Source of the DNA: a bacterium 1XD8-76
Lineage (GTDB): Bacteria > Bacillota > Clostridia > Lachnospirales > Lachnospiraceae
NCBI GenBank assembly: GCA_003611955.1
Contig: RAZE01000019.1
Location: 1 to 64,000 of the forward strand
Reading direction: 5' to 3'
Length of the DNA stretch: 64,000 nt
Shown: positions 29,736 through 61,882 of the stretch, one piece after another
Layout of the letters: each line of letters starts with the position of its first letter
Position numbering within the stretch: position 1 is the first letter of the stretch
Notes under the pieces: model-generated
The model's database searches: none
Told to the model about the DNA's origin: nothing
The model's input: only the letters and a program-made list of their open reading frames with translations
Made by a program: the position numbers and the translations under genes

Positions 29736-32690
29736 TTATTTTTGATGCAAAAACTGCCGCAGCACATTCATCAGCAGCTCGATGTCGAGCGGCTTCGCGA
29801 TATGGGCGTTCATTCCGCTCTTTAACGCCGCCTCCCGGTCCTCCTCCATGGCGTTCGCCGTCATGGCGATAATGGGAAGATTCTTCACATCCCGGCGGCG
29901 CATCGCCCGAATCTCCTTCGTCGCCTCATAGCCGTTCATAACCGGCATCTGCACATCCATCAGCACCGCGTCGTAATAGCCTTCCTCCGATCTCTCTATC
30001 ATAGCTACCGCATCCGTTCCGTCGGGCGCCGATTCCACCACAAATCCTACTTCCTCGAGAATGACTCCGGCGATCTCCCGGTTCAACTCGTTATCTTCCA
30101 CCAGAAGAACCCTTCTGCCGTTAAAATCAGCTTTCGTCCACGCTGCTCTCCCGTCCTGCGGATCCGCTTCGCCGATACGGTTCGCCGCCAGAAGCGCCGC
30201 CTTTAAGTCGGACATGAAAAGCGGTTTCGCGCAGAATGCCGTGATGCCCGCCGCCTTCGCCTCCTCCTCGATATCGGCCCAGTCGTAGGCAGTCAGGATA
30301 ATGATGGGCGCGTCCTCCCCCACCACGCTGCGGATCCTTCTCGCAGTCTCGATCCCGCTGGTCTCCGGCATCTGCCAGTCGATAATATAGGTGTGGTAGG
30401 GATCCCCCTCCTCGTAGGCGGATTTGGCACGGTACGCCGCCTCCCTGCCGGACGTGGTCCACTCCGCGCGCAGGCCGATGCTCTTCAACATCTTGCTGAC
30501 GCTGTCGCAGACATTGAAGTCGTCGTCCACCACCAGGGAGCGCAGTCCGCTCAGTTCCTTGATCTGTTCGGCATTCTTTTCCACATCCTGAAGCTGCAGA
30601 GAAAGTTTCACCGTGAAAGTGCTCCCTTTCCCCACTTCGCTCTCCACCGTGATCTCCCCGCCCATCATATCGACGATGTTCTTCGTGATGGCCATGCCGA
30701 GCCCGGCTCCCTGTATGCCGCTTCTCGTGGTCGTCGTCTCCCTCTCAAAGGGCTCAAAGATATGTTTCACAAACTCTTTGGACATACCGATGCCATTGTC
30801 CCTGACAACGAAAATATAGTCCCCCCACCCGTGTCTGTAGGTGGTATCCTGCGTGATGCGGAAGCTCACCGTCCCGCCCGCCGGCGTGTATTTGACAGCG
30901 TTCCCCATCAGATTGATAAATATCTGGTTCAGCTTCAAGGGGTCCGCGATCACGTCCTCATTGACCACCCCGAAGGTATCGATAAACATCTCCAGCTGCT
31001 TGGATTTTACCTGCGGCTGGATAATATTTACCAGATTGTGCATCAGCTCAGGGACATTACACTCCTGATTATGGATCTGCAGCTTTCCGCTCTCAATGCG
31101 GCTCATATCCAGAATATCGTTGATCAGCCCCAGCAGATGATTGCTGGACGAAAGAATCTTCTGCAGACAGTCCCTCACCTGATCCGTTCGGTCCATATGG
31201 CTTGCCGCGATCGTCGCAAAGCCGATGATGGCATTCATGGGCGTACGGATATCGTGGCTCATGTTGGACAGGAAAGTGGTCTTTGCCTGATTGGCGTGCT
31301 GCGCCTGCATCAGGGCATCCTGTAGCGTCTGCGTCTGCTCCCGCTGCTTTTTGATCTGGTCCGTGACATTCTGGCGGACGTACAGCACCCTGGTGGGAAC
31401 TTTGTCCTTCCGCTCCAGACATACCACGATCAGATTTTCCCATTCTTCCTTCTCCTGGCGGGAGACATGGCATACATGGACGAGAAAATCCTCCGTCTTC
31501 AAATTTTCCCTGAGGGTATCGATCCGGCTGAAATAGCGGAACGCCTTTTTTTCTTCCTCGCCCAAAATATCCGCCTCATGGAACTTTATCATCTCGCTGT
31601 AGACGCCTTCCATCGGAATATTGACATTCAGCGGTCTCGCCCCCGCCAGATAGGAATAGCGGTCGTTCTCCAGATCCACCACCAGATAGCGGGAGGAGAA
31701 GAGGATGTTCACCCCCCGGAGCACATCGCTGATAAACTTATTCTCCGCCTCCAGCTCCTTGCGCCGCCTCCCCGCGCGCACCACCAGAAAAGCGATATAT
31801 ATCCCAAACAGGATAAGCAGGCAGATCTCCAGCATAACGCCCGCCATGTTCGCCCTTTTCACCATCCCCTGCGTAATATTCTTCGGAAACGCCTGGACGA
31901 GGACATACTCGTGGCCCGGCAGATCCACCACACAGATGTTGTCTGTCTTACATCCTTCCTCACACAGAAGAGCCACCTCGCCGCCCTCCCGGAACACGGT
32001 CCGCGCCGTCCCGGCAGTCTCCTCGTCGATGACCCCCTCCTGCGTCAGGGAATCCAACAGGTCGCCCTCATAGACTTTGTCGCTCGAACTGGCGATCACA
32101 CTGCCCTCCTGGGTGCAGAGAAATACATCGGCCTTCTCGCCGAAATAACTGGCGGTGAGCATGTCCCGCAGATATTCCTCCGCAAAATATAATCCCAGAA
32201 ATACTCCCGCCGTTTCTCCGTCCCTGTATACGGGGGCGTAAAACACCATCATGGGTTTCCCGGTGATCCTGGACTTCTCCACGGTGACCAGCCCGCTCTC
32301 CCCCCGCATACCATTTACAAAATACTCTCTGTCGGAACTGTCGTTGGTCTCCCCGCCGGAAGCCAGATTGATGCCCTCCGCATTGGTGAAGCGTATGGCG
32401 TCAAAGCTCGTATTCTCCTCCATCTCCTTCAGGATCCGTGTGTCGATTTCCAGATCCTCCGCCCCTATGACAACCAGGTAAGCGCTGTTCTGGATGCGCT
32501 GCAGCGCATTGTTAAATTCGCTCTCGATGCGCTCGGCCGTCTGCAGGGCGCAGTCCTCCGCGTAAACCCTGTTCTGTTCCTGAATGCGGGCTCTGTTCTG
32601 CGTTGTGTAGATAAAAAATAACACAGGTATCGCCATCAGAAAGAATAAAGCGTATATGATCGGCTGCCATGTTCTGTTTTCCTGTTTCAT
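29736..32690 (-). CDS. Hybrid sensor histidine kinase with two receiver domains
   Basis: Membrane kinase of about 984 residues. TM1 (WQPIIYALFFLMAIPVLFFI), an extracytoplasmic sensor of about 250 residues (Cache-like), TM2 (EICLLILFGIYIAFLVV), a PAS-like region, HisKA with the phospho-His in FLSNMSHDIRTPMNAI, HATPase (NAVKYTPAGG, DNGIGMS, GAGLGMAITK), then two receivers (SLVVDDDFNVCD with D in YIIDWQMPE; VLLVEDNELNRE with D in VLMDVQMPV). No Hpt domain, so a separate phosphotransfer protein or cross-talk is needed. The start at 32690 is chosen because the promoter at 32751-32780 lies downstream of the earlier in-frame ATGs; its ribosome binding site is weak. Confidence 0.88.
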   Translation of the reverse strand: MKQENRTWQPIIYALFFLMAIPVLFFIYTTQNRARIQEQNRVYAEDCALQTAERIESEFNNALQRIQNSAYLVVIGAEDLEIDTRILKEMEENTSFDAIRFTNAEGINLASGGETNDSSDREYFVNGMRGESGLVTVEKSRITGKPMMVFYAPVYRDGETAGVFLGLYFAEEYLRDMLTASYFGEKADVFLCTQEGSVIASSSDKVYEGDLLDSLTQEGVIDEETAGTARTVFREGGEVALLCEEGCKTDNICVVDLPGHEYVLVQAFPKNITQGMVKRANMAGVMLEICLLILFGIYIAFLVVRAGRRRKELEAENKFISDVLRGVNILFSSRYLVVDLENDRYSYLAGARPLNVNIPMEGVYSEMIKFHEADILGEEEKKAFRYFSRIDTLRENLKTEDFLVHVCHVSRQEKEEWENLIVVCLERKDKVPTRVLYVRQNVTDQIKKQREQTQTLQDALMQAQHANQAKTTFLSNMSHDIRTPMNAIIGFATIAASHMDRTDQVRDCLQKILSSSNHLLGLINDILDMSRIESGKLQIHNQECNVPELMHNLVNIIQPQVKSKQLEMFIDTFGVVNEDVIADPLKLNQIFINLMGNAVKYTPAGGTVSFRITQDTTYRHGWGDYIFVVRDNGIGMSKEFVKHIFEPFERETTTTRSGIQGAGLGMAITKNIVDMMGGEITVESEVGKGSTFTVKLSLQLQDVEKNAEQIKELSGLRSLVVDDDFNVCDSVSKMLKSIGLRAEWTTSGREAAYRAKSAYEEGDPYHTYIIDWQMPETSGIETARRIRSVVGEDAPIIILTAYDWADIEEEAKAAGITAFCAKPLFMSDLKAALLAANRIGEADPQDGRAAWTKADFNGRRVLLVEDNELNREIAGVILEEVGFVVESAPDGTDAVAMIERSEEGYYDAVLMDVQMPVMNGYEATKEIRAMRRRDVKNLPIIAMTANAMEEDREAALKSGMNAHIAKPLDIELLMNVLRQFLHQK

Positions 32691-32750
32691 ATGACCCGGC
32701 GCGAAATACCTGCGCCATCCCCCCTTTGTCAGATTAATTGTTAAATAATT

Positions 32751-32780
32751 ATTATACAACAAACCCATCCCCGATAGCAA
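32751..32780 (-). promoter_or_regulatory. Promoter of the hybrid kinase gene
   Basis: TTGCTA (32780-32775), 18 bases, TATAAT (32756-32751) on the minus strand, just past the stop of the degenerate ATPase gene. It gives the hybrid kinase its own transcript. Confidence 0.6.
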
Positions 32781-32805
32781 GATTTTCACCCGGATCAAAT
32801 TCATT

Positions 32806-34260
32806 TCAGACCATTTTTTTCATAAATGAGTACGACATTTTATGCTCCTCAAACTCCCCCTCTTCCTCCGCGATCCCCTGCGCGCTCAGTCTCAGGGTCC
32901 GCTCTGCCACCAGCCAGGTATCCAGGGGATTCACCGACAGCAGCACCAGCGTGATCCCCCTGTCCAGGAGTTGTTCCAGCATCTCCCAGATAAACCGTCT
33001 GTGCGGCATGTCCGCCCCCATAAAGGGCTGGATCAGAAACACCACCCTTGGTTTCTGCAGCATGATCCTCATGTAGACGAGCTGATATTTTCGCCGCTCG
33101 GACAATGTTTCCACCGGCCTCTCAAACACCTCGTCCCCCAGGATCGGTGCGTATTCCCGTCGGATGCTGGCCCGGATCTTCCTGCCGCTCCAGATGTCCG
33201 GCATCCGTCTTGCCAGTCCCATACACAGGTTGTCCATATAACTCATCTCCGGAAAGATCATCGTGGAGGTGGGCTGCGCCGAGACCACCGCAATTTCCCT
33301 GTCCATGGATATCTTTCTCCTTCTGCCGTCCATCGTGATCCGGCTCTCCTCCCCTGTCAGAAACAGGACGCAGGACTGCAGGATCTGGTCATCCTGAGCC
33401 CGCAGCGTCAGACACTCCCCCTCATTTACGGAAAAGGCAAACCGTATTTCCCTCCTGTCGGCAAACACGGCCTCCATCCGGATCTCTCTCCCGGCCCTCG
33501 GCAGATGCCCGTTCTCCGGGTAACCCCAGACGCTCCGGTCATATCCCTCCAGACACTCCTGAAGGTACTTCCGATTCATATCCGCCTCCTGCACGATCTT
33601 CTGCAGCCGCCCGTTGCACAGAAAACCCGCCCTGTCGCACAGAGGCACTATCTCCTCAAAATGGGAGCTGATATAGAGAAAAGAGAAACCCCGGCCCGTG
33701 TAATGACGCAGAATCTCCGAGAGCTTCCGCATCTCCTTTCCGCTGACAAAAATGCTGATCTCATCCAGCACGATCAGGTGGTATCCCATGACCACCGCCT
33801 TCAACAGTTCCACCACCACCCGCTCAAAGGCCGAGAGGTTCTCCACCCGGACATCCGCCGAAATATCCATGCCAATCTCGTCCATGAAAGGCTGAAGCTG
33901 TTTCTTTAAAACGGACGTCTGTAAGATGTGCTGACGGAAGTTCTGTCGAAGCACAAAGATATTGTCCGCCACCGTCATCCCGTTCACCAGACGGCTCTGG
34001 GCCTGTATCACGCTCACCCGATTGCTCTTCTTTAACGCCGACCGCCAGGAGTTGACAAGTTCTTCGCCATAATAAATATATCCGTCGTAGAGAGGGAGGT
34101 TATTCTGCAGGAGTTTCAGAATCGCCTGCTTCCCGTGGGCGTTGACCGGTATCAGCCCCATGATCTCACCCGCGTAGATCTGCATATTGAAATTTTCCAG
34201 TTTTTTTATACCCTGTTCCGCGTAGGTCACGCGCTCCATGCGGAAGATCTCCTGTCTCAT
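32806..34260 (-). CDS. Degenerate RbsA-like double ABC ATPase domain protein
   Basis: The 484-residue chain follows the two-NBD layout of RbsA/MglA sugar ATPases, but the catalytic motifs are eroded. NBD1: Walker A is GLIPVNAHGKQAI (Ser/Thr after Lys lost), the signature is LSAFERVVVE instead of LSGGQ, while Walker B LIVLDEI and switch His SSHFEE remain. NBD2: no Walker A, signature LSERRKYQL, and Walker B is VVFLIQPFMGAD without the acidic pair. It may bind nucleotide poorly or not at all. Its start overlaps the stop of the YesM-type kinase gene by 4 bases, unlike transport ATPases, which sit with permeases. A regulatory, adaptor or competitor role toward the nearby sugar transporter is inferred; the function is unknown. 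Confidence 0.75.
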   Translation of the reverse strand: MRQEIFRMERVTYAEQGIKKLENFNMQIYAGEIMGLIPVNAHGKQAILKLLQNNLPLYDGYIYYGEELVNSWRSALKKSNRVSVIQAQSRLVNGMTVADNIFVLRQNFRQHILQTSVLKKQLQPFMDEIGMDISADVRVENLSAFERVVVELLKAVVMGYHLIVLDEISIFVSGKEMRKLSEILRHYTGRGFSFLYISSHFEEIVPLCDRAGFLCNGRLQKIVQEADMNRKYLQECLEGYDRSVWGYPENGHLPRAGREIRMEAVFADRREIRFAFSVNEGECLTLRAQDDQILQSCVLFLTGEESRITMDGRRRKISMDREIAVVSAQPTSTMIFPEMSYMDNLCMGLARRMPDIWSGRKIRASIRREYAPILGDEVFERPVETLSERRKYQLVYMRIMLQKPRVVFLIQPFMGADMPHRRFIWEMLEQLLDRGITLVLLSVNPLDTWLVAERTLRLSAQGIAEEEGEFEEHKMSYSFMKKMV

Positions 34261-35297
34261 ACCTTCTCCATCTCCCTGTCCTGCGTCGTCACAATGGGCA
34301 GCGTCACTTCTACATCTGTCCCCTTGCCGCGGATGGAGTAGACGTGCATACCGTACTGCTCCCCGAACAGCAGATGGATCCGGTTATTCACATTGACTAA
34401 CGCGATGCCGCCCTTCTTCTCCTCGTTTTCGGTCAGAGCCTTCCCTCCTCTGCCCAGCTGTCTGTTCAGCTTCGCCAGAGTCTGCTCATCCATCCCCACG
34501 CCGTCGTCCGAGATCCTGATGATCAGCCGCCTTTCCGTCTGCTCAAACCGGATCGTCAGATTTCCCGTCCCGATCTTTAACTCCGTGCCGTGGATAATGC
34601 TGTTCTCGAGGATCGGCTGCAGGGTCAGCTTGGGAATCCTGCAGTTCATAATGCTCTCCCTGTTTTCCTCATCGCAGAGGACATGGAGCTGCAGCCGGTT
34701 TCCGAAACGGTATTTCTGGATCAGGAAATAGGTTCCGCAGTTGTCCAACTCCTCCTCCACCGACACCAGATTTTCCACCTTCGTGATCGTATAGCGGAAG
34801 AATTTTGCCAGCGCCTCGGTCATATCCGCGATATTATCCATCCCAGCAATCAGCGCCTCCCCCCGGATGCTCTCCAACGTATTGTAGAGGAAATGGGGGT
34901 TGATCTGGTTCTGCAGCGCCAGATACTGCGCCTGCCGTTTGTTCAGATCCATCATCTCCGGGGATTTCAGTACCTGTTCCATCCGCTCGATCTCCTCCTC
35001 CATGGTGGGCGTCAGCAGTGCCTGGTCAAAGAGACTTTTGTCCGGCAGAATGTAACCGTCCAATATACGCCGTATCATCATCTGTATGCGCCGGTAAGGG
35101 CGCAGCACAAACACCCAGAAGGATACCGCGAAGAAAACCGTAAACACCAAAAACAGCATCACCTGCCAAAAGGGCGCTTCCTCTCTGAAAAACAGGATGC
35201 ACTGTATCAGTATCTGCAGCGCCAGAAAGCCAAACAGAACCGACGCCAGAAGAAACATCCTGTTTGATATGTATTTCCAGCGGTTATTTTCTCTCAT
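34257..35297 (-). CDS. YesM/LytS-type sensor histidine kinase
   Basis: 346-residue membrane kinase. Two N-terminal membrane helices (FLLASVLFGFLALQILIQ and the PFWQVMLFLVFTVFFAVSF stretch) with almost no extracellular loop, so it probably senses through a partner or within the membrane. His_kinase domain with phospho-His in LQNQINPHFLYNTLESIRG; HATPase with LQPILENSIIHG and RISDDGVGMDEQTL. The stop overlaps the start of the degenerate ATPase gene (34257-34260), and the gene is 9 bases after the AraC-type regulator. The lack of a sensor domain makes the ATPase-like partner a candidate input module (inference). Confidence 0.88.
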   Translation of the reverse strand: MRENNRWKYISNRMFLLASVLFGFLALQILIQCILFFREEAPFWQVMLFLVFTVFFAVSFWVFVLRPYRRIQMMIRRILDGYILPDKSLFDQALLTPTMEEEIERMEQVLKSPEMMDLNKRQAQYLALQNQINPHFLYNTLESIRGEALIAGMDNIADMTEALAKFFRYTITKVENLVSVEEELDNCGTYFLIQKYRFGNRLQLHVLCDEENRESIMNCRIPKLTLQPILENSIIHGTELKIGTGNLTIRFEQTERRLIIRISDDGVGMDEQTLAKLNRQLGRGGKALTENEEKKGGIALVNVNNRIHLLFGEQYGMHVYSIRGKGTDVEVTLPIVTTQDREMEKV

Positions 35298-35306
35298 ATG
35301 TACTCC

Positions 35307-36902
35307 CTACCCGTAAAGTTTCCGGTACGCCGCCGGCTTCAGTCCCGTCGCTTTCTCAAAATTGTGGATAAAATGCTTCAGATCGTTGTAACCCACCCTG
35401 CGGCAGACCTCTGAGACGGAAAAGTTGCTCTCCCGAAGCAGTATCTTTGCCTGTTCCATCCGCACGCCGGTCAGATACTTCGCAAACCCTTCTCCCTCCT
35501 CCTTCTTGAACAGGGCGCTGAAATAGGTGCTGGAAAGCCCCACCGCACTGCTGACTTCCTCCTGGGTGATCGGCTCGCTAAAATGATTCTGGATATACTG
35601 TTTCGCCTGACGGACGGGGCGCACCATATTCCCCTCATGCTGCTGTACCAACTCTTCAATATATTTTTTCTGCATTTCCTCCAGCACCTGAAACAGAGCT
35701 TCCCGGGATCCGCACTGCCTGCATCTTTCCGAAAAGCGCTGCAGCTTCTCCCGGCGTTCCCTCGACTCCACCTGGCTCAAAAACAGAGCGCCGCAGGAAT
35801 TTACCAGTTCCAGTATCTCATATCCCCGCACATCCCTCACCTGCGCCACTTCCGCACGAATCTCGTCCAGCGCTTTCCGCGCCTTCTCCTCACTCATGAT
35901 CTCGATGGCGTGGGTGATGCCCCTCAGGTACTTCTCCAGAAGGCTCTTCTCGTGAAGAGAGGAGGTTCCCTCCGGCATATAATCCAACAGGCGCCCCGTC
36001 CCCTTGACCAGGCGCTCCTCGATGATCACGGCCGCCTCCCGCAGGGATCTCCCGATCCCGGAAGGCTCCGTCACGATACCGCCCACCGCCATGGAGAAAA
36101 ATATCTCCCCATAGAGATTTTTCCCGCTCTCCAGCTGGTTCAGGCAGTCTTTCAGGATGCGCCGGATCTCCTCCTGCCGGTCCTTCCCGTAGTTTAAAAT
36201 GCCGATGTAGCCTCCCCAGTCCTGCCCCTTGCAGAACATATCAAAACATTTGCCGGCGAGACAACTCTCGATCAGTCTTCCGGAGCGCTCTATGATAATG
36301 TGTTTCCCTTCCTCACCGGGTTCCTCCCCCGGACAGTCTATTTTCAGCCAGATCGCCTGGAAACAGCCGGGCTGCACATCCAGATAGTATTCCTCCCGCA
36401 GACGCTCCCATGAAAGAGGTTCTTCCTTCTGTTCCCGGAGCCGCTCCAGCAGAAGATCCCTGAGTCTTCGCACATCGTTCTTGCTCTTTCTCTCCAGCTG
36501 CTGCTTATCCTCCTGCTCCCTGATGCGACAATCGATCTTTGCGCGCAGCCGCTCTAACGTCATCGTCAGTTCCGCCTTATTGATGGGCTTTAAGAGATAC
36601 TCTCCCACGCCGAACTTTATCGCGCTCTTCGCGTAATCAAAATGGGCGTAGCCGCTGATTATGATGATCTCCAGCTCCGGCCGCTCTTTTTTTACTCTCT
36701 CAATCAGTTCCAGACCGCTGCACCCTGGCATCCGGATATCCGTGATCAGTATATCCGGGCACAACTGTCCCACAAGCTCTGCGGCTTCCAGTCCGTTATG
36801 GGCGATGGCAGCCACCTCCATATCAAGAGCTCTCCAGTCCACCAACGCCTCGATCAGACGGCAGATCCTCTCCTCATCATCCGCAATTATCACTTTTTGC
36901 AT
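35307..36902 (-). CDS. YesN-type response regulator (receiver + AraC DNA-binding)
   Basis: 531 residues. N-terminal receiver with phospho-Asp in DILITDIRMPGCSG (acidic pocket IADDEER, Lys in LLKPINK), a middle region of about 300 residues including a long coiled-coil stretch (REQEDKQQLERKSKNDVRR), and a C-terminal AraC/XylS helix-turn-helix pair (VGLSSTYFSALFKKEEGEGF, then CRRVGYNDLKHFIHNFEKAT). First gene of RR-kinase-degenerate ATPase, placed after the sugar ABC operon. Likely activates that ABC operon (inference from the usual pairing). Confidence 0.9.
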   Translation of the reverse strand: MQKVIIADDEERICRLIEALVDWRALDMEVAAIAHNGLEAAELVGQLCPDILITDIRMPGCSGLELIERVKKERPELEIIIISGYAHFDYAKSAIKFGVGEYLLKPINKAELTMTLERLRAKIDCRIREQEDKQQLERKSKNDVRRLRDLLLERLREQKEEPLSWERLREEYYLDVQPGCFQAIWLKIDCPGEEPGEEGKHIIIERSGRLIESCLAGKCFDMFCKGQDWGGYIGILNYGKDRQEEIRRILKDCLNQLESGKNLYGEIFFSMAVGGIVTEPSGIGRSLREAAVIIEERLVKGTGRLLDYMPEGTSSLHEKSLLEKYLRGITHAIEIMSEEKARKALDEIRAEVAQVRDVRGYEILELVNSCGALFLSQVESRERREKLQRFSERCRQCGSREALFQVLEEMQKKYIEELVQQHEGNMVRPVRQAKQYIQNHFSEPITQEEVSSAVGLSSTYFSALFKKEEGEGFAKYLTGVRMEQAKILLRESNFSVSEVCRRVGYNDLKHFIHNFEKATGLKPAAYRKLYG

Positions 36903-36978: not shown

Positions 36979-37021
36979 CATTATATATTATCAGAGACTC
37001 TATGTCACTAAATGAACCATG

Positions 37022-38854
37022 TTACTTTGTCAGCACGGAAACTCTCGTATCTGTCACCGCACCGCCGAGAGATTCCCCTTCGAGTGCTTTCACACAGGCT
37101 TCCACACCCATGGAACCCATCACATCGGGATTCTGTGCCATCGTGCAGAGCAGGTGTCCGTCGCCGATCAGGTTCATGATCGCATCGGATTTATCAAAGC
37201 CAACGCCCACGATATCGGAGTTGCCGGATGCCTTGATGGCATTGCCCGTTCCTGTTGTGCTTCCCTCGTTACATCCGAAGATACCTACTACATTCTGAGT
37301 GATATAGTTCTCAGCGATGGTCTGGGACTTCGCCGCGTCGCCCTCGCCGTACTGTGTCTCAAGGAGATTGAAGTCTGTTCCCTCAAACGCTTTCCGGAAC
37401 CCTTCCTCACGGTCCACTGTGGACTGTGTCGCAGCGTTTACATTCACGATACCGATATCGCCGCTTGTCACGCCTGCCGCCTCAAGAGCTTTGATCATCT
37501 CTTCGCCCGCCGTGGTACCTGCCGCCACGTTATCGGTGGAGAAAGTCGCTTCCGCGTCCACGTTTGCGGGGGAGTCCACATACACAACCTTGATGCCTGC
37601 CGAGATCGCTTCCTGCAGTGCGGAAGAGATCGCGTCGGGGCCGTTTGCAGCCACGATGATCGCTTCATAACCGCCTGCCACCGCATTGTTCACACATTCG
37701 ATCTGCTGTGCGTCGTCCTTTGTGTTGGGGGACATGAATGTCACTTCCACACCCAGTTCGCCCGCCTTCGCCTGAGCGCCTTCATTTAAAGTTACCCAGT
37801 GCTGGTCGATGGAGTCCATCGTGATCAGAGCGATCTTCCATTCCTTGCTCGCCTTCACCGCATCGCCGGATGCCGCAGATGCCGCACCGCCCAGCGCTGC
37901 CGCGTCGATCACGGAAACGCCTGTATCCGTCACTTTTCCGCCCAGGTCTTCGCCGCCGATAGCCGCAACTGCCGCTTTCACGCCTTCGTAACCCATCACG
38001 TCCGGATTCTGCGCCATCGTGCAGAGCAGATAGCCGTCTGTGATCAGCCCCTGGATCGCATCGGACTTATCGAAACCTACACCCACGATATCGGAGCTGC
38101 CGGATGCCTTGATCGCGTTGCCTGTTCCTGTTGTGCTTCCTTCGTTACATCCGAAGATACCTACTACCTTCTGCGTGATGTAGTTCTCAGCGATGGTCTG
38201 GGATTTCGCCGCGTCGCCTTCGCCGTACTGTGTCTCAAGCAGGTTGAAGTCTGTTCCTTCAAACGCTTTTCTGAAACCATTTTCTCTGTCTACCGTAGAC
38301 TGTGTCGCAGCGTTTACGTTGACGATTCCGATGTCGCCGCTTGTGATGCCTTTCGCATCGAGGGCTTTGATCATCTCCTCACCCGCTGTGGTTCCTGCCG
38401 CCACGTTATCGGTGGAGAAAGTCGCTTCCGCATCCACGTTTGCGGGAGAGTCCACATAGACAACCTTGATGCCCGCGCTGATGGCTTCCTTCAATGCGGA
38501 AGAGATCGCGTCAGGACCGTTTGCCGCTACGATGATAGCCGCATAGCCGCCTGCCACCGCGTTGTTCACACATTCGATCTGCTGTGCGTCGTCCTTTGTG
38601 TTAGGTGACATAAATGTCACTTCCACGCCCAGCTCGCCCGCCGCCTTCTGTGCGCCTTCGTTCAGGCTGATCCAGTGCTGGTCGATGGAGTCCATCGTGA
38701 TCAGGGCGATCTTTGCTCCATCCGCAGAAGCAGCTGCCTCTGTTGACTCGCCTTCCGCTGCCGCCGGTGCATCCGCACTCTGACTGCCGCAGCCCGTAAG
38801 CGCCGCTGCCAGCATAGTCACGCCGCAGAGTAAACTTAACAGTTTCTTTTTCAT
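37022..38854 (-). CDS. Sugar ABC substrate-binding lipoprotein with two tandem ligand domains
   Basis: Lipoprotein (LAAALTGCGSQS lipobox) of 610 residues, about twice the usual length. Two Peripla_BP_4-type (ribose-binding-like) domains at about residues 48-320 and 340-610 are nearly identical: both start KIALITMDSIDQHW, both contain VTFMSPNTKDDAQQIECVNN, GIKVVYVDSPANVDAEATFS and GIFGCNEGSTTGTGNAIKAS. The DNA repeats with an 876-bp period (from 38713 and from 37837). A short linker (ASGDAVKASKEW) joins them. By ear about nine residues in ten agree, so the duplication is recent or kept uniform by gene conversion. It is encoded with its ATPase and permease. The substrate is a sugar or similar polar ligand, not resolved. 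Confidence 0.9.
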   Translation of the reverse strand: MKKKLLSLLCGVTMLAAALTGCGSQSADAPAAAEGESTEAAASADGAKIALITMDSIDQHWISLNEGAQKAAGELGVEVTFMSPNTKDDAQQIECVNNAVAGGYAAIIVAANGPDAISSALKEAISAGIKVVYVDSPANVDAEATFSTDNVAAGTTAGEEMIKALDAKGITSGDIGIVNVNAATQSTVDRENGFRKAFEGTDFNLLETQYGEGDAAKSQTIAENYITQKVVGIFGCNEGSTTGTGNAIKASGSSDIVGVGFDKSDAIQGLITDGYLLCTMAQNPDVMGYEGVKAAVAAIGGEDLGGKVTDTGVSVIDAAALGGAASAASGDAVKASKEWKIALITMDSIDQHWVTLNEGAQAKAGELGVEVTFMSPNTKDDAQQIECVNNAVAGGYEAIIVAANGPDAISSALQEAISAGIKVVYVDSPANVDAEATFSTDNVAAGTTAGEEMIKALEAAGVTSGDIGIVNVNAATQSTVDREEGFRKAFEGTDFNLLETQYGEGDAAKSQTIAENYITQNVVGIFGCNEGSTTGTGNAIKASGNSDIVGVGFDKSDAIMNLIGDGHLLCTMAQNPDVMGSMGVEACVKALEGESLGGAVTDTRVSVLTK

Positions 38855-38910: not shown

Positions 38911-39927
38911 TTAGTTTCCTTTTTTCTTCTTGAACTGTCCGCCCCTTACGACTACGTCCAGAAGTACCGCCGCCACCACGATCACACCGATGACTACCCG
39001 CTGGATGCCGACCTGGGCGCCGATCATGTTCAGCCCGTTCTCCAGTGTCTGCCATACCGCCGCACCCGCGAAGGTCCCGAGCAGAAGCCCTGTACCGCCG
39101 AGGGGGGATACGCCGCCGATTACGCCCGCCGCAACGCCGTACATCTCGTACATATTTCCGGCTTCCATGTTGCCCATGCCTGCCTGTGCGCAGAGGATCA
39201 GTCCCACCACACAGGAGCAGACCGCGCTGACCAGGTAAGCCTTTGTCGTAGTTGCCACCACGTTCACACCGGAGAGCTTCGCCGCTTCGATGTTGGAGCC
39301 GATGGCGTATATATGTCTTCCCGTTCTTGTCTTGGAGAGCAGGAAGAAGAAAATGATGAAGAAGATCAGTGCGATCCAGAATGTGTTGTAGACGCCCAGT
39401 GTCGTCCCGTAGTAGAAAATATTCTGGAAGCTGTCCCCCGCCTCCTTGCCGATGCCGGTGGCGATAGCGTCCGTGTTGCGGTTGCTGTTTACCATGTATG
39501 CCACACCTCTTGTGATAAACATGGTGCCCAGCGTTGCGATGAAGGGCGGCAGTTTAAACTTGCCCACCAGAAATCCGTTGACCACGCCGCACACCAGACA
39601 GCATAAAAGGGCTACCAGTATCGCAACGAACGGATTGACGCCCCTGCTCATCAGCGTCGCCGCCACCATAGCGCTCATGCCTACCATGGAACCGATGGAC
39701 AGATCGATGTTGCCGGTGATCAGTATGTAGCTCTGCGCGATACCGATCAAGAGATATTTTGACATGGAGCGCAGCAGATTCATGATATTCTGTCCGGAGA
39801 AGACCGCCGGATTGATCAGCCCGAATGCCACATAGATCACAATCAGTCCGATAAACGCCGTGATCGCGGCGCCCATGCCCCGGATCGCCATTATTTTTCT
39901 AAGAGAACTTTGCTTTTCATTACTCAT
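38911..39927 (-). CDS. RbsC-type sugar ABC permease
   Basis: Membrane permease of about 338 residues, BPD_transp_2 family, with about ten membrane helices. Landmarks: LLRSMSKYLLIGIAQSYILI, GNIDLSIGSMVG, and GLVSxx-type C-terminal AGVIGGVSPLGGTGLLLG. Start 39927 (MSNEKQSSLR) has GGAGG 11 bases upstream and overlaps the ATPase stop; the in-frame ATG at 39948 is less likely. One permease gene is present, so it would act as a homodimer. Confidence 0.92.
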   Translation of the reverse strand: MSNEKQSSLRKIMAIRGMGAAITAFIGLIVIYVAFGLINPAVFSGQNIMNLLRSMSKYLLIGIAQSYILITGNIDLSIGSMVGMSAMVAATLMSRGVNPFVAILVALLCCLVCGVVNGFLVGKFKLPPFIATLGTMFITRGVAYMVNSNRNTDAIATGIGKEAGDSFQNIFYYGTTLGVYNTFWIALIFFIIFFFLLSKTRTGRHIYAIGSNIEAAKLSGVNVVATTTKAYLVSAVCSCVVGLILCAQAGMGNMEAGNMYEMYGVAAGVIGGVSPLGGTGLLLGTFAGAAVWQTLENGLNMIGAQVGIQRVVIGVIVVAAVLLDVVVRGGQFKKKKGN

Positions 39928-41455
39928 GCTCTTCGTTTCCTCCCTCACTCTTTCCTATCTTTTTATCCTCAAAGGTGGTAGCCAACGTCAGAATCTCATT
40001 CTGCGTCGTCTCCCTCGCCATCACCTCGCCCGTGATGCGTCCGTCGCACATGACGATGATGCGGTCCGCGATACCCATCACCTCGGGCATTTCCGAGGAG
40101 ACAAAGACAACCGCGATGCCCTGCTTTTTCAGATCGTTCATCAGGTGGTAAATCTCCACTTTCGCCCCTACATCGATACCCCTTGTGGGCTCATCGAAGA
40201 TCACTACTCTCGAATCCCTCGCCAGCCATTTCCCGACCACGACCTTCTGCTGATTGCCGCCGGAGAGGTTGCCCGAATCGATCTCCACATTGGGAGTCTT
40301 GATCCTCAAGTCCTCCACAGCCTTTTCGCAGAGCTTCTCCTCCGTTTTACTGCTCACCACGCCCAGCCTGTTACAGACGATATCCAGATTCGGCAGCGCC
40401 AAATTGTGGCGGATGGAAAGCTTTGTGCACAGACCGTCTTTCTTCCGGTCCTCCGGTGCCAGCACCACGCCGCTCTTTATGGCGTCCATGGGGCAGGTGA
40501 TCTTCACTTCCTTGCCGTCCACATAGATCTCGCCGCTCTCCTTCGGATCTACGCCGAAGATCGCCCTTGTGGTCTCCGTGCGCCCCGCGCCCATCAGCCC
40601 GGCAAAGCCCACGATCTCGCCCTCGTAGGCGGAGAAATTGATATCTCTCACCATCCGTCCGGCATTCAAATTCTTTACCTCAAAGATCTTCTTTCCTTTT
40701 TCGCACTCCACTCTGGGAAACTTCTCCTTGATCTCACGTCCCACCATGTGGGCGATAATCTGATCCATCGTGGTTTCTTTAAAGTTCATCGTCGTGATAT
40801 ACTGGCCGTCCCGCATGATCGTCACGCGGTCCACGATATGCTGCAGCTCCTCCAGACGATGGGATATGTAAACGATGCCTTTTCCCTCGCTCTTCAGCTT
40901 CCTGATAATGCGGAACAGATCCTCGATCTCCCTCGCCGTCAGAGAGGAGGTCGGTTCGTCCATGATCAGGATCTTCGCATGAATGGAAAGGGCTTTCGCT
41001 ATCTCTACCATCTGCTGTTTGGAAACCGGCAGCTCACCCACGATCTGATTCGGACTGATATCGATCTTTAAATCATCCAGTATTTCCTTTGCTTCCTTTT
41101 CCATGGAACTGTTGTCCAGCGCCACCTTCCCGCGCTTTTCCCTGCCGAGGAACATGTTTTCCGTGACCGTCAGGTGCTTGCACATGTTCAGCTCCTGATG
41201 GATGATCGCAACGCCCGCTTCCTGTGCCTGCTTCGGCGTCAGATCGCCATACTCTTTGCCGAAGATCTCAACGGAACCTTCATCTCTTGTGTAGACGCCG
41301 CTCAACACCTTCATGAGCGTTGACTTGCCTGCGCCGTTCTCCCCAAGCAGCGCAAGGACTTCGCCGGAGCGCAGTTCAAAATCCACGCCGTCGAGCGCCT
41401 TCACGCCGGGGAAAGACTTGCAGATATTCTTCATTGAGACAATTATCTCACCCAT
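39920..41455 (-). CDS. RbsA/MglA-type sugar ABC ATPase
   Basis: Energises uptake with its two fused NBDs in 511 residues. NBD1: Walker A LLGENGAGKSTLMKVL, signature LPVSKQQMVEIAKAL, Walker B ILIMDEPTSSL. NBD2: GLMGAGRTETTRAIFG in place of Walker A (normal for RbsA), signature LSGGNQQKVVVGKWL, Walker B VVIFDEPTRGIDVGAK. All motifs are intact, in contrast with the degenerate copy at 32806-34260. First gene of the ABC operon (ATPase-permease-binding protein). Confidence 0.94.
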   Translation of the reverse strand: MGEIIVSMKNICKSFPGVKALDGVDFELRSGEVLALLGENGAGKSTLMKVLSGVYTRDEGSVEIFGKEYGDLTPKQAQEAGVAIIHQELNMCKHLTVTENMFLGREKRGKVALDNSSMEKEAKEILDDLKIDISPNQIVGELPVSKQQMVEIAKALSIHAKILIMDEPTSSLTAREIEDLFRIIRKLKSEGKGIVYISHRLEELQHIVDRVTIMRDGQYITTMNFKETTMDQIIAHMVGREIKEKFPRVECEKGKKIFEVKNLNAGRMVRDINFSAYEGEIVGFAGLMGAGRTETTRAIFGVDPKESGEIYVDGKEVKITCPMDAIKSGVVLAPEDRKKDGLCTKLSIRHNLALPNLDIVCNRLGVVSSKTEEKLCEKAVEDLRIKTPNVEIDSGNLSGGNQQKVVVGKWLARDSRVVIFDEPTRGIDVGAKVEIYHLMNDLKKQGIAVVFVSSEMPEVMGIADRIIVMCDGRITGEVMARETTQNEILTLATTFEDKKIGKSEGGNEEHE

Positions 41456-41567
41456 TCCTTCATCCTTCCTTTTGTATATTTTGCTTTATATTTACATAAT
41501 AGCAAAGTCTTTTTTGTCAAAAAAGGGTGGAAGTTTTTGGATTTGATGGGGTTTTTTATGCAGTTTG

Positions 41568-60379: not shown

Positions 60380-61882
60380 TTAAATCATTTTTTGTATTAA
60401 TTTTGCCTCACTCAAGCCTTCGCTGCGCTCAAATTCTCCGGATACTTCCCCATCCTTCAACAGGATGATCCGATCTGACATTCCGATCAGCTCCGGCAGT
60501 TCTTCCGAGATCAGAAGGATTGATTTTCCTTCTTTTTTCAGAGTTTCTATCAGCTGATAGATCGCTGCTTTCGTCCCCACATCGATCCCCCTTGTGGGGC
60601 AGTCCAAAATCAGAATATCCGCGCCTTTGGCAAGCCATTTTGCGAGTACCACCTTCTGTTTGTTGCCGCCGCTCAGCGTATTGCAGTATGCGGAAACGGA
60701 TGCCGCCTTCACTTCCATCTTTTCCGACCAGGTCTCAGCCATGGCTTTCTGCTTTCTTACGGAGACAGGACCGAATTTCGCCATATCCCTCAGGGAAGGC
60801 AGGCAGATATTATCCCGGATACTGCAGATCGGCATCATGGATTCCTGATCTCTGTTTTTCGATACGTATGCGATATTTCGGCGCACCGCCCAGGAAGCGC
60901 TTTTCACTTCCTCCCGTCCGTCTTTCAATACCCTGCCCTGCTGCGGCGGAATCAGTCCATACAATATTTTCCCCACCTCATGCATTCCGCAGTCGCTCAG
61001 CCCCCCGATTCCAAGCACTTCTCCGCGGTGCAGTTTTATGGTGGCATTTTTTATTCCCGCGGCCGTCACATTCTCCATCTCGAGAACGACATCTTCACTG
61101 ATGTGTTCATCCACATCCTCCCTGTAGTAGTGCCCCGAAAGTTCCCGCCCTATCATCAGCTGACGGATCTTATCCGCATTAAATTCCTCTTTTTTCAGGT
61201 TGGCCGTGAGCACTCCGTCCCGCAGTATCGTGAGAGAATCACACATTTCCATGATCTCGTCGATGTCATGGGAGATAAATAAAACGGAGCTTCCGCTCTC
61301 TTTCACTTTTCTCATCAGATCATAGAGAATATCCCTCCCCGACAGACTCAGAGCTGTCGTAGTCTCATCGATGATCCAGAGTCCCGGATTCGTATAGAGC
61401 GCCCTCGCCAGCTCTATCAGCTTTCTGTCCTCGAAAGAAAGCTTCTCCGTCCTTTGTTCCGGCGCTATGTTCTCCACACCGATATCTTTCAATGCCTTCT
61501 CTGCGGTTCTGTTCATCTCTCTGGTATTCAAAATACCATGTTTTACAAACATCGATTCCTTTCCAAAAAATATATTGGCCGCCACGGATATCCCCGTGAT
61601 CGTCCCCTGTTCCTGCACCACCATGCTGACGCCGTGATCTACCGCATCCACCGTGCCGTCCGGTCTGTATTCCTTCCCCTTCAGATACATATGCCCGCTG
61701 TCGCTTTTCTGGATACCGGCTGCAATGGATGAAAAAGTAGATTTCCCGGAACCGTTTTCTCCCACCAGACCGCGTATCTCCCCGGCCTCGATCACAATAT
61801 CAAAATCCGCCAGCGCACGGACCGCTCCAAAAGACTTGCAGATTTTTTCCGCTCTAAAAAGACAGTTTTTCTTCTCCGGCAT
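60380..61882 (-). CDS. RbsA-type double ABC ATPase, NBD2 with Glu-to-Cys change
   Basis: 500 residues, two NBDs. NBD1: Walker A GLVGENGSGKSTFSSI, signature LSFEDRKLIELARAL (LSFED instead of LSGGQ), Walker B LWIIDETTTAL. NBD2: GIGGLSDCGMHEVGKI, signature LSGGNKQKVVLAKWL, Walker B ILILDCPTRGIDVGTK, where the catalytic Glu of DEP is Cys. One active ATP site may be lost or shifted. First gene of the nucleoside-type operon; promoter at 61926-61954. Confidence 0.9.
   Translation of the reverse strand: MPEKKNCLFRAEKICKSFGAVRALADFDIVIEAGEIRGLVGENGSGKSTFSSIAAGIQKSDSGHMYLKGKEYRPDGTVDAVDHGVSMVVQEQGTITGISVAANIFFGKESMFVKHGILNTREMNRTAEKALKDIGVENIAPEQRTEKLSFEDRKLIELARALYTNPGLWIIDETTTALSLSGRDILYDLMRKVKESGSSVLFISHDIDEIMEMCDSLTILRDGVLTANLKKEEFNADKIRQLMIGRELSGHYYREDVDEHISEDVVLEMENVTAAGIKNATIKLHRGEVLGIGGLSDCGMHEVGKILYGLIPPQQGRVLKDGREEVKSASWAVRRNIAYVSKNRDQESMMPICSIRDNICLPSLRDMAKFGPVSVRKQKAMAETWSEKMEVKAASVSAYCNTLSGGNKQKVVLAKWLAKGADILILDCPTRGIDVGTKAAIYQLIETLKKEGKSILLISEELPELIGMSDRIILLKDGEVSGEFERSEGLSEAKLIQKMI

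Follow-up and report, generated by a model that had tools for sequence, protein, structure and literature searches.

Many bacterial histidine kinases have no recognizable sensor, and the signal input of these kinases is an open question. In the MalK-MalT pair, a transporter ATPase takes part in gene control; MalK is functional as an ATPase, and its contact is with the activator rather than with a kinase. XylFII-LytS is a three-component sugar system like CuaDSR. CuaDSR joins a two-component system to a third protein and controls a sugar ATP-binding cassette (ABC) importer in Clostridia; this third protein, the binding protein CuaD, attaches to the outer side of the kinase (PMC10384115). In PstSCAB-PhoU-PhoR, kinase sensing is reported to need an ABC importer and an additional protein (PMC9239213). 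In BceRS-BceAB and related systems of Firmicutes, an intramembrane-sensing kinase partners with an ABC transporter and controls its genes; this partner is a translocator that has an unusually large outer loop and is involved in the response to antibiotics (PMC3023708). Here we describe a locus in the first 64,000 nucleotides of contig RAZE01000019.1 of the bacterium 1XD8-76 (Lachnospiraceae), referred to as the window. It encodes a conserved, probably transporter-coupled two-component module that is recurrent in Clostridia and consists of a response regulator (RR), a sensor-less kinase, and an RbsA-derived pseudo-ABC ATPase (pATP).

The closest logic is that of PstSCAB-PhoU-PhoR and also of the Bce modules, but the parts fit neither. 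In contrast to Bce, the transporter in the window is a CUT2 sugar importer, a separate dead ATPase is encoded near it, the kinase belongs to PF06580, and the RR is of the AraC type. The permease is ribose-permease-like by Pfam and NCBIfam (BPD_transp_2) and is not a translocator whose outer loop is unusually large. The adaptor proposed here is an ABC ATPase homolog, whereas PhoU belongs to a different protein family. The extra gene encodes a cytoplasmic pseudo-ATPase rather than a binding protein such as CuaD, and the window kinase has no ectodomain on which a binding protein could sit. Like the RbsA, XylG, and AraG-type CUT2 ATPases, pATP has two tandem nucleotide-binding domains (NBDs) and a similar length, but it lacks a hydrolytic site, scores far below the equivalog cut-offs, and is linked to a kinase. 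It is a transporter ATPase homolog in gene control, as MalK is, but it is dead and kinase-linked. No such system was found among the listed matches from the open full-text literature, a coverage that leaves out most subscription papers. An earlier reading of the DNA letters alone (the first-pass annotation) had proposed that the ATPase-like protein is an adaptor coupling the neighboring importer to the kinase. The present data partly support that proposal, which pointed in the right direction, toward a probable form of transporter-coupled two-component signaling. The genes concerned are as follows, with the evidence in parentheses.

32806..34260, minus strand: pATP, 484 amino acids, two RbsA-like NBDs, hydrolytic motifs lost (open reading frame [ORF], PF00005, NCBIfam, motifs, ratio of nonsynonymous to synonymous substitution rates [dN/dS], AlphaFold2, Foldseek)
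34257..35297, minus strand: short histidine kinase, 346 amino acids, PF06580 and HATPase_c, two transmembrane (TM) helices, no sensor domain found (ORF, domains, TM prediction)
35307..36902, minus strand: RR, receiver and AraC-type helix-turn-helix, 531 amino acids (ORF, domains)
37022..38854, minus strand: CUT2 importer binding protein, two tandem binding-protein domains (ORF, domains)
38911..39948, minus strand: CUT2 permease, BPD_transp_2, 345 amino acids (ORF, Pfam, NCBIfam)
39920..41455, minus strand: the importer's intact RbsA-like ATPase, 511 amino acids (ORF, Pfam, NCBIfam, motifs)

On the minus strand, the order of transcription is importer ATPase, permease, and binding protein, followed by RR, kinase, and pATP. 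The gene calls and spacing of the compact operon described in the first-pass annotation were confirmed, with 9 bases between the RR and kinase ORFs and a 4-base overlap between those of the kinase and pATP.

RbsA-type models matched pATP over its full length, consistent with a CUT2 ATPase that carries two tandem RbsA-like NBDs in one chain of about 500 amino acids; PF00005 was found as one stretch. The best NCBIfam match was the xylose ATPase model (E = 3.2e-38), and the equivalog cut-off was not reached (131.5 versus 699 bits; best 25 of 108 families shown). No model specific to pATP was present among the Pfam and NCBIfam matches shown. An AlphaFold2 model built from 11 sequences had a mean per-residue confidence (pLDDT) of 77 and a predicted template modeling score of 0.65, and its Foldseek matches were ABC proteins, several with two NBDs. 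The NBD1 Walker A motif reads PVNAHGKQA, with the Ser/Thr gone, as had been noted, and the lysine kept. Walker B D-E is also kept (LIVLDEIS), so NBD1 is not wholly stripped. NBD2, described earlier as having lost all catalytic motifs, indeed keeps none and has LSERRKY at the signature position. The absence of LSGGQ from NBD1, which the first-pass annotation had counted as erosion, is real but not diagnostic because intact CUT2 ATPases also lack LSGGQ there; the NBD1 signature of the neighboring intact ATPase reads LPVSKQQ. The diagnostic loss is that of LSGGNQQ in NBD2. Neither the NBD1 Walker A nor the NBD2 LSGG is intact in the window pATP; both are intact in 62/62 intact relatives.

We compared the motifs of 83 pATPs with those of 62 intact ATPases, almost all drawn from the same loci. 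The pATPs retained NBD1 GK[S/T] in 13/83 cases, NBD1 Walker B D-E in 13/83, the H-loop His in 10/83, and NBD2 LSGG in 1/83, compared with 62/62 intact ATPases for each; NBD2 Walker B D-E was retained in 0/83 compared with 59/62. One of the 83 (L100) is truncated by a contig end within NBD2. Leaving out L001-L007, the seven close relatives of the window, gave counts of 13/76 for GK[S/T], 1/76 for NBD2 LSGG, and 0/76 for NBD2 Walker B D-E. Another 14 pATPs from other families scored 0/14 on each of the five motifs. Homologs with intact motifs in the same operon position had been named in advance as evidence against the adaptor idea. A single case (1/83) came close to this, at L125 (4972-6420), where a nearly intact ABC protein with D-Q in the NBD2 Walker B occupies the cassette position; from its motifs, it looks like a possible evolutionary intermediate. 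At L165 (5005-7701), which is from outside the family, the gene after the kinase is that of the importer's intact ATPase; the gap is 148 bp, and no pATP lies between the two. The motif counts indicate that the hydrolytic site has been lost in all pATPs but L125, and nucleotide binding may survive in a minority. Among columns conserved in intact ATPases, those of catalytic motifs were kept in pATPs at 0.23 on average, versus 0.41 for the others (46 versus 52 columns, P = 6e-4). Two further forms were seen: single-NBD pATPs of about 250 amino acids at L183 (1608-2369) and L107 (7679-8431), and, at L175 (2800-6052), a degenerate ABC protein upstream of an RR and short kinase, with the NBD2 signature lost and Walker B kept, which may have an independent origin.

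The 83 pATP ORFs have a median length of 483 amino acids. Between the window and its near relatives, median dN/dS was 0.124 for pATP (15 of 28 pairs passing the saturation filter); the kinase gave 0.104 and the RR 0.092. Among 87 sequences, pATPs share residues E4 and R7 at weighted frequencies of 0.96 and 0.89, and intact ATPases almost never carry them (0.00 and 0.03). At the codon level, pATP is thus shown to be under purifying selection in the window's lineage, and these fixed family-specific residues point the same way; selection had previously been argued from the intact frame. N100 and N344 are retained (0.86 and 0.99) despite the loss of nearby motifs, and we take these asparagines to lie near the permease-docking groove. 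No PDB sequence matched the permease at E 0.001, which left no solved CUT2 complex on which to map the groove.

The window kinase has His_kinase and HATPase_c domains and a phospho-acceptor histidine in PHFLYN, as in LytS/YesM-type kinases (PF06580). Its phospho-acceptor histidine, N-box, and G-box residues are invariant in 31 aligned kinases, itself included. The structural model was weak (mean pLDDT 68), and the best Foldseek match was the GanS kinase domain (6swk). A large extracellular sensor region is typical of YesM and is missing here: TM helices are predicted at residues 17-35 and 46-64 with a loop of 10 residues between them, which bears out the earlier remark that the kinase has almost no extracellular domain. 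Intramembrane-sensing kinases have two TM helices and a loop of under about 25 residues, and the window kinase fits this description. Among 83 cassette kinases, 66 have two TM helices (median loop 9 residues), 10 have one, and 7 have none. By a second measure, a hydrophobic stretch was absent in 9/88; one of these is frameshifted (L060) and one is a contig-end artifact (L104), leaving seven membrane-free kinases (L080, L098, L110, L111, L118, L119, and L123).

In five membrane-free-kinase operons (L118, L119, L123, L183, and L184), pATP is encoded together with a CUT2 permease, and the stretches read at these loci contain no intact RbsA-type ATPase. Two of the seven kinases belong to genome G169, and L183 and L184 are full reads of their operons, in which pATP, binding protein, permease, RR, and membrane-free kinase form the operon; the pATP of L183 has one NBD, and that of L184 has two, both eroded. 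Clear binding-protein homologs occur in L183 and L184, and the one in L119 is weak (30 bits). At L119, an Opp-like transporter with its own short ATPases follows (names assigned by eye). The other two membrane-free kinases lie beside a complete importer (L098) and at a contig edge where the locus ends (L080). Among kinases with TM helices, L099, L103, and L081 have an extra permease directly after pATP, besides the importer's own. The extra permeases of L099 and L103 and the permeases of L118, L119, and L123 form two divergent branches. Where a membrane-free kinase is encoded beside a permease and a dead ATPase, the simplest reading is a receptor built like an importer.

We then asked how regularly pATP accompanies the kinase; the first-pass annotation had also named a lack of conserved linkage with kinase genes as evidence against its proposal. 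In the genome collection, all eight relatives (L001-L008, 37-99% identity) encode RR, kinase, and pATP in order. A family survey covered 299 genomes from 298 genera, using pATP and kinase profiles and reading the surroundings, with kinases of up to 420 amino acids counted as short. An ABC-like ORF lay directly downstream of 75/80 short kinases recovered (45 genomes; 46 with G169, where it is upstream). These counts are a lower bound because only five to seven candidates per genome were scored. Adjacency was used rather than score because profile A2 missed the cassette at L090 and scores of the broader profile A3 overlap with those of intact ATPases. Because the kinase profile had been derived from linked kinases, we also counted a blind subset of 33 kinases with no neighboring ABC gene listed when they were picked. 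An ABC gene was directly downstream in 28/33; the exceptions were L107 (a 251-amino-acid pATP beyond the RR), L110 and L111 (pATP upstream, seen once the read was extended), and L130 and L131 (none). As a control, we took 20 long kinases from the same genomes (frames of at least 586 amino acids, in list order), leaving out G178:C1 (625 amino acids), G133:C36 (566 amino acids), and several frames of 482-526 amino acids. None of the 20 had an ABC gene directly downstream (Fisher test, P = 1e-16 against 75/80 and 3e-10 against 28/33), and chance linkage of kinase and pATP was rejected on this basis. The survey and blind-subset counts likewise reject the lack of conserved linkage that would have spoken against the adaptor idea. 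For 8/20 long kinases, an RbsA-type ATPase lies 1.1-3.4 kb further down, beyond binding-protein genes.

At the class level, with G000 and long kinases counted, 25/391 genomes had a match to the kinase profile at E 1e-75. Outside G000, a short-frame kinase was found in 17 genomes, with pATP directly downstream in 14 (one cut at a contig end); the remaining three have a pATP on the other strand (G369), an ABC protein upstream of the RR (G453), or no pATP beside the kinase (G629, the genome of L165). At the phylum level, 4/299 genomes matched at E 1e-85, G000 included, and the other three have pATP. The window genome itself carries a second system on another contig, whose pATP is 25% identical to that of the window:

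L017, 9107-18106: binding protein, intact ATPase, permease, glycyl-radical-activating-enzyme-like gene, RR, short kinase, pATP

The glycyl-radical-activating-enzyme-like gene was recognized by eye and has relatives in L053, L055, and L073.

A CUT2 ATPase or permease homolog lies within 10.5 kb of 68/75 cassettes. The side, strand, and distance of the importer genes relative to the cassette vary. To compare the divergence of these genes, we used mirror trees of 42 loci and a subset of 18 in which pATP is the gene farthest from the importer, with each permease paired to its ATPase. Given kinase and RR, pATP correlated with the importer ATPase (r = 0.50) and permease (r = 0.28) across the 42 loci, and with both in the 18-locus subset (r = 0.55 and 0.57). 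Physical closeness is therefore not the whole reason for the co-divergence of pATP and importer. An earlier run that paired permeases by nearest distance (kinase-permease given pATP, r = 0.03) was set aside in favor of the ATPase-paired run (r = 0.23).

Through the three-gene unit found in many Clostridia, the kinase probably senses the state of the sugar importer that is under its own control. In the mechanism that we favor, with a probability of roughly one half, a non-hydrolyzing pseudo-ATPase docks on a permease and relays its state to a sensor-less kinase controlling importer expression. The double-NBD body of pATP would have been kept for docking on a CUT2 permease, where pATP would be a non-hydrolyzing stand-in, the partner being either the importer's own permease or a dedicated one. 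Loading of the binding protein or turnover of the permease would shift the shape of pATP, which would pass the change to the kinase dimer, and the phosphorylated AraC-type RR would act at 21-bp repeats to set importer expression. We infer the docking, the relay, and the binding of the RR. More tentatively, and with odds closer to one in three, a non-transporting "dead importer" of binding protein, CUT2 permease, and pATP may sense sugar and drive a soluble or near-soluble kinase through pATP. If so, it would be a distinct receptor class, with its purest form in G169 (L183 and L184). A dedicated pATP partner would be a concrete, testable answer to the question of input for a sizeable group of kinases in Clostridia and would show an energy-coupling subunit turned into a signaling adaptor. 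From the model one can also predict the importer served by each such kinase, and hence the sugar that it reports.

The proposed site of output lies upstream of the importer genes, and a promoter-like match precedes the RR-kinase-pATP operon:

41518..41557, minus strand: tandem direct repeat of about 21 bp, C-rich, proposed RR binding site (matrix scan)
36980..37008, minus strand: promoter-like GTGACA-17-TATAAT, before the RR-kinase-pATP operon (consensus match only)

The repeat has C-rich cores, and 62 bp separate it from the downstream start of the importer ATPase ORF. Two-turn direct repeats suit AraC-type RRs, and we propose this one as a candidate RR binding site. The matrix was made from five sites at five other loci, aligned by eye and excluded from the counts; the window repeat had been seen before the matrix was made. 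It is the top matrix site in the window (33.5 versus 17.5 for the best unrelated site). With close importers defined by at least 68% ATPase identity and locus-best by rank 1 or 2, the repeat was locus-best before 8/10 close importers not used for the matrix, the window included. Promoter-like consensus matches in the scanned region numbered 2, versus 3.4 expected by shuffling.

The adaptor idea accords with the operon anatomy, the membrane-free kinases, and the co-divergence with the importer, and several observations weigh against it. Beyond the RR, pATP-kinase co-divergence was r = 0.36 overall and not significant in either subset (0.13 and 0.13). The kinase-permease correlation of 0.23 remains once pATP is removed, and in the 18-locus subset kinase-ATPase reaches 0.42, so these values do not describe a clean chain of genes. 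Since pATP trees are the longest, the partial correlations may also reflect noise. Contact of pATP with permease or kinase is something that we infer, and in the 13/83 pATPs that keep Walker A GK[S/T], nucleotide binding may matter. At L165, the locus (to which the search was confined) keeps RR, kinase, repeat, and importer without a pATP beside the kinase; pATP is present in three other sampled genomes of that genus. L130 also lacks pATP, and L131 stands alone. The repeat was locus-best for only 6/66 other importers, including L165, L169, and L171, which are just below the identity limit, and L107 and L108, which have weak scores. Set against 8/10 close importers, this indicates that the repeat belongs to this importer lineage and not to all cassettes.

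These points bear differently on the alternatives. pATP could bind the kinase alone and sense a cytoplasmic ligand, such as a nucleotide or sugar phosphate, through remodeled NBD clefts without touching a permease. The strictest linkage is indeed adjacency to the kinase, NBD1 GK[S/T] survives in 13/83, and membrane-free kinases exist. We nevertheless consider this unlikely: Walker A Ser/Thr is lost in most pATPs, the window's included, no replacement pocket was seen among conserved columns (no ligand-site search was made), pATP-importer co-divergence exceeds the share of kinase and RR, and a CUT2 permease accompanies pATP in the five membrane-free-kinase operons. Those same operons speak against a different role, in which pATP would throttle transport by competing for the permease against the intact ATPase, being merely co-transcribed with the two-component genes, since no intact RbsA-type ATPase was found in the stretches read there. 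Homology of pATP to the importer's own ATPase, the better retention of fold than of catalytic residues, and the co-divergence with the importer would all suit such a throttle. The kinase, however, is the direct neighbor in 75/80 cases while the importer's position varies, and a kinase without TM helices has no other obvious input, which makes throttling somewhat less likely still.

A mixed transporter, with pATP as a structural second ATPase beside the active subunit, would have precedent in the non-canonical NBD1 signature and NBD2 Walker A that CUT2 ATPases already have, and the genes adjoin. Importers nevertheless own a complete double-NBD ATPase, and the linkage to the kinase would be left unexplained; we regard this as improbable. 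Motif erosion by itself would also be expected of a decaying duplicate of the importer ATPase. A dN/dS of about 0.12 over 15 pairs, 83 ORFs with a median of 483 amino acids, and newly conserved family-specific residues led us to reject decay, to which we attach next to no weight. The docking adaptor remains the reading that we prefer.

Other features of the window concern its neighboring genes. Downstream of pATP, 29736-32804 encodes a dCache hybrid kinase with two receiver domains. We considered it as a fourth member of the module but discarded this idea, as L001, which is 99% identical, is the only one of L001-L007 to share it. A second importer in the window has an RbsA-like ATPase (60380-61882) with an odd NBD2 (GLSDCGMHE, Walker B DCPT) in which LSGGNKQ is kept, and a similar one occurs at L089. 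The two halves of the importer binding protein (37022-38854) are near-identical, with 235/260 residues identical and 84% identity in DNA. Double binding proteins also occur in L001, L002, L004, L006, L048, L051, and L062, with halves 86-96% alike within each protein, and single ones occur in L008, L052, and L074.

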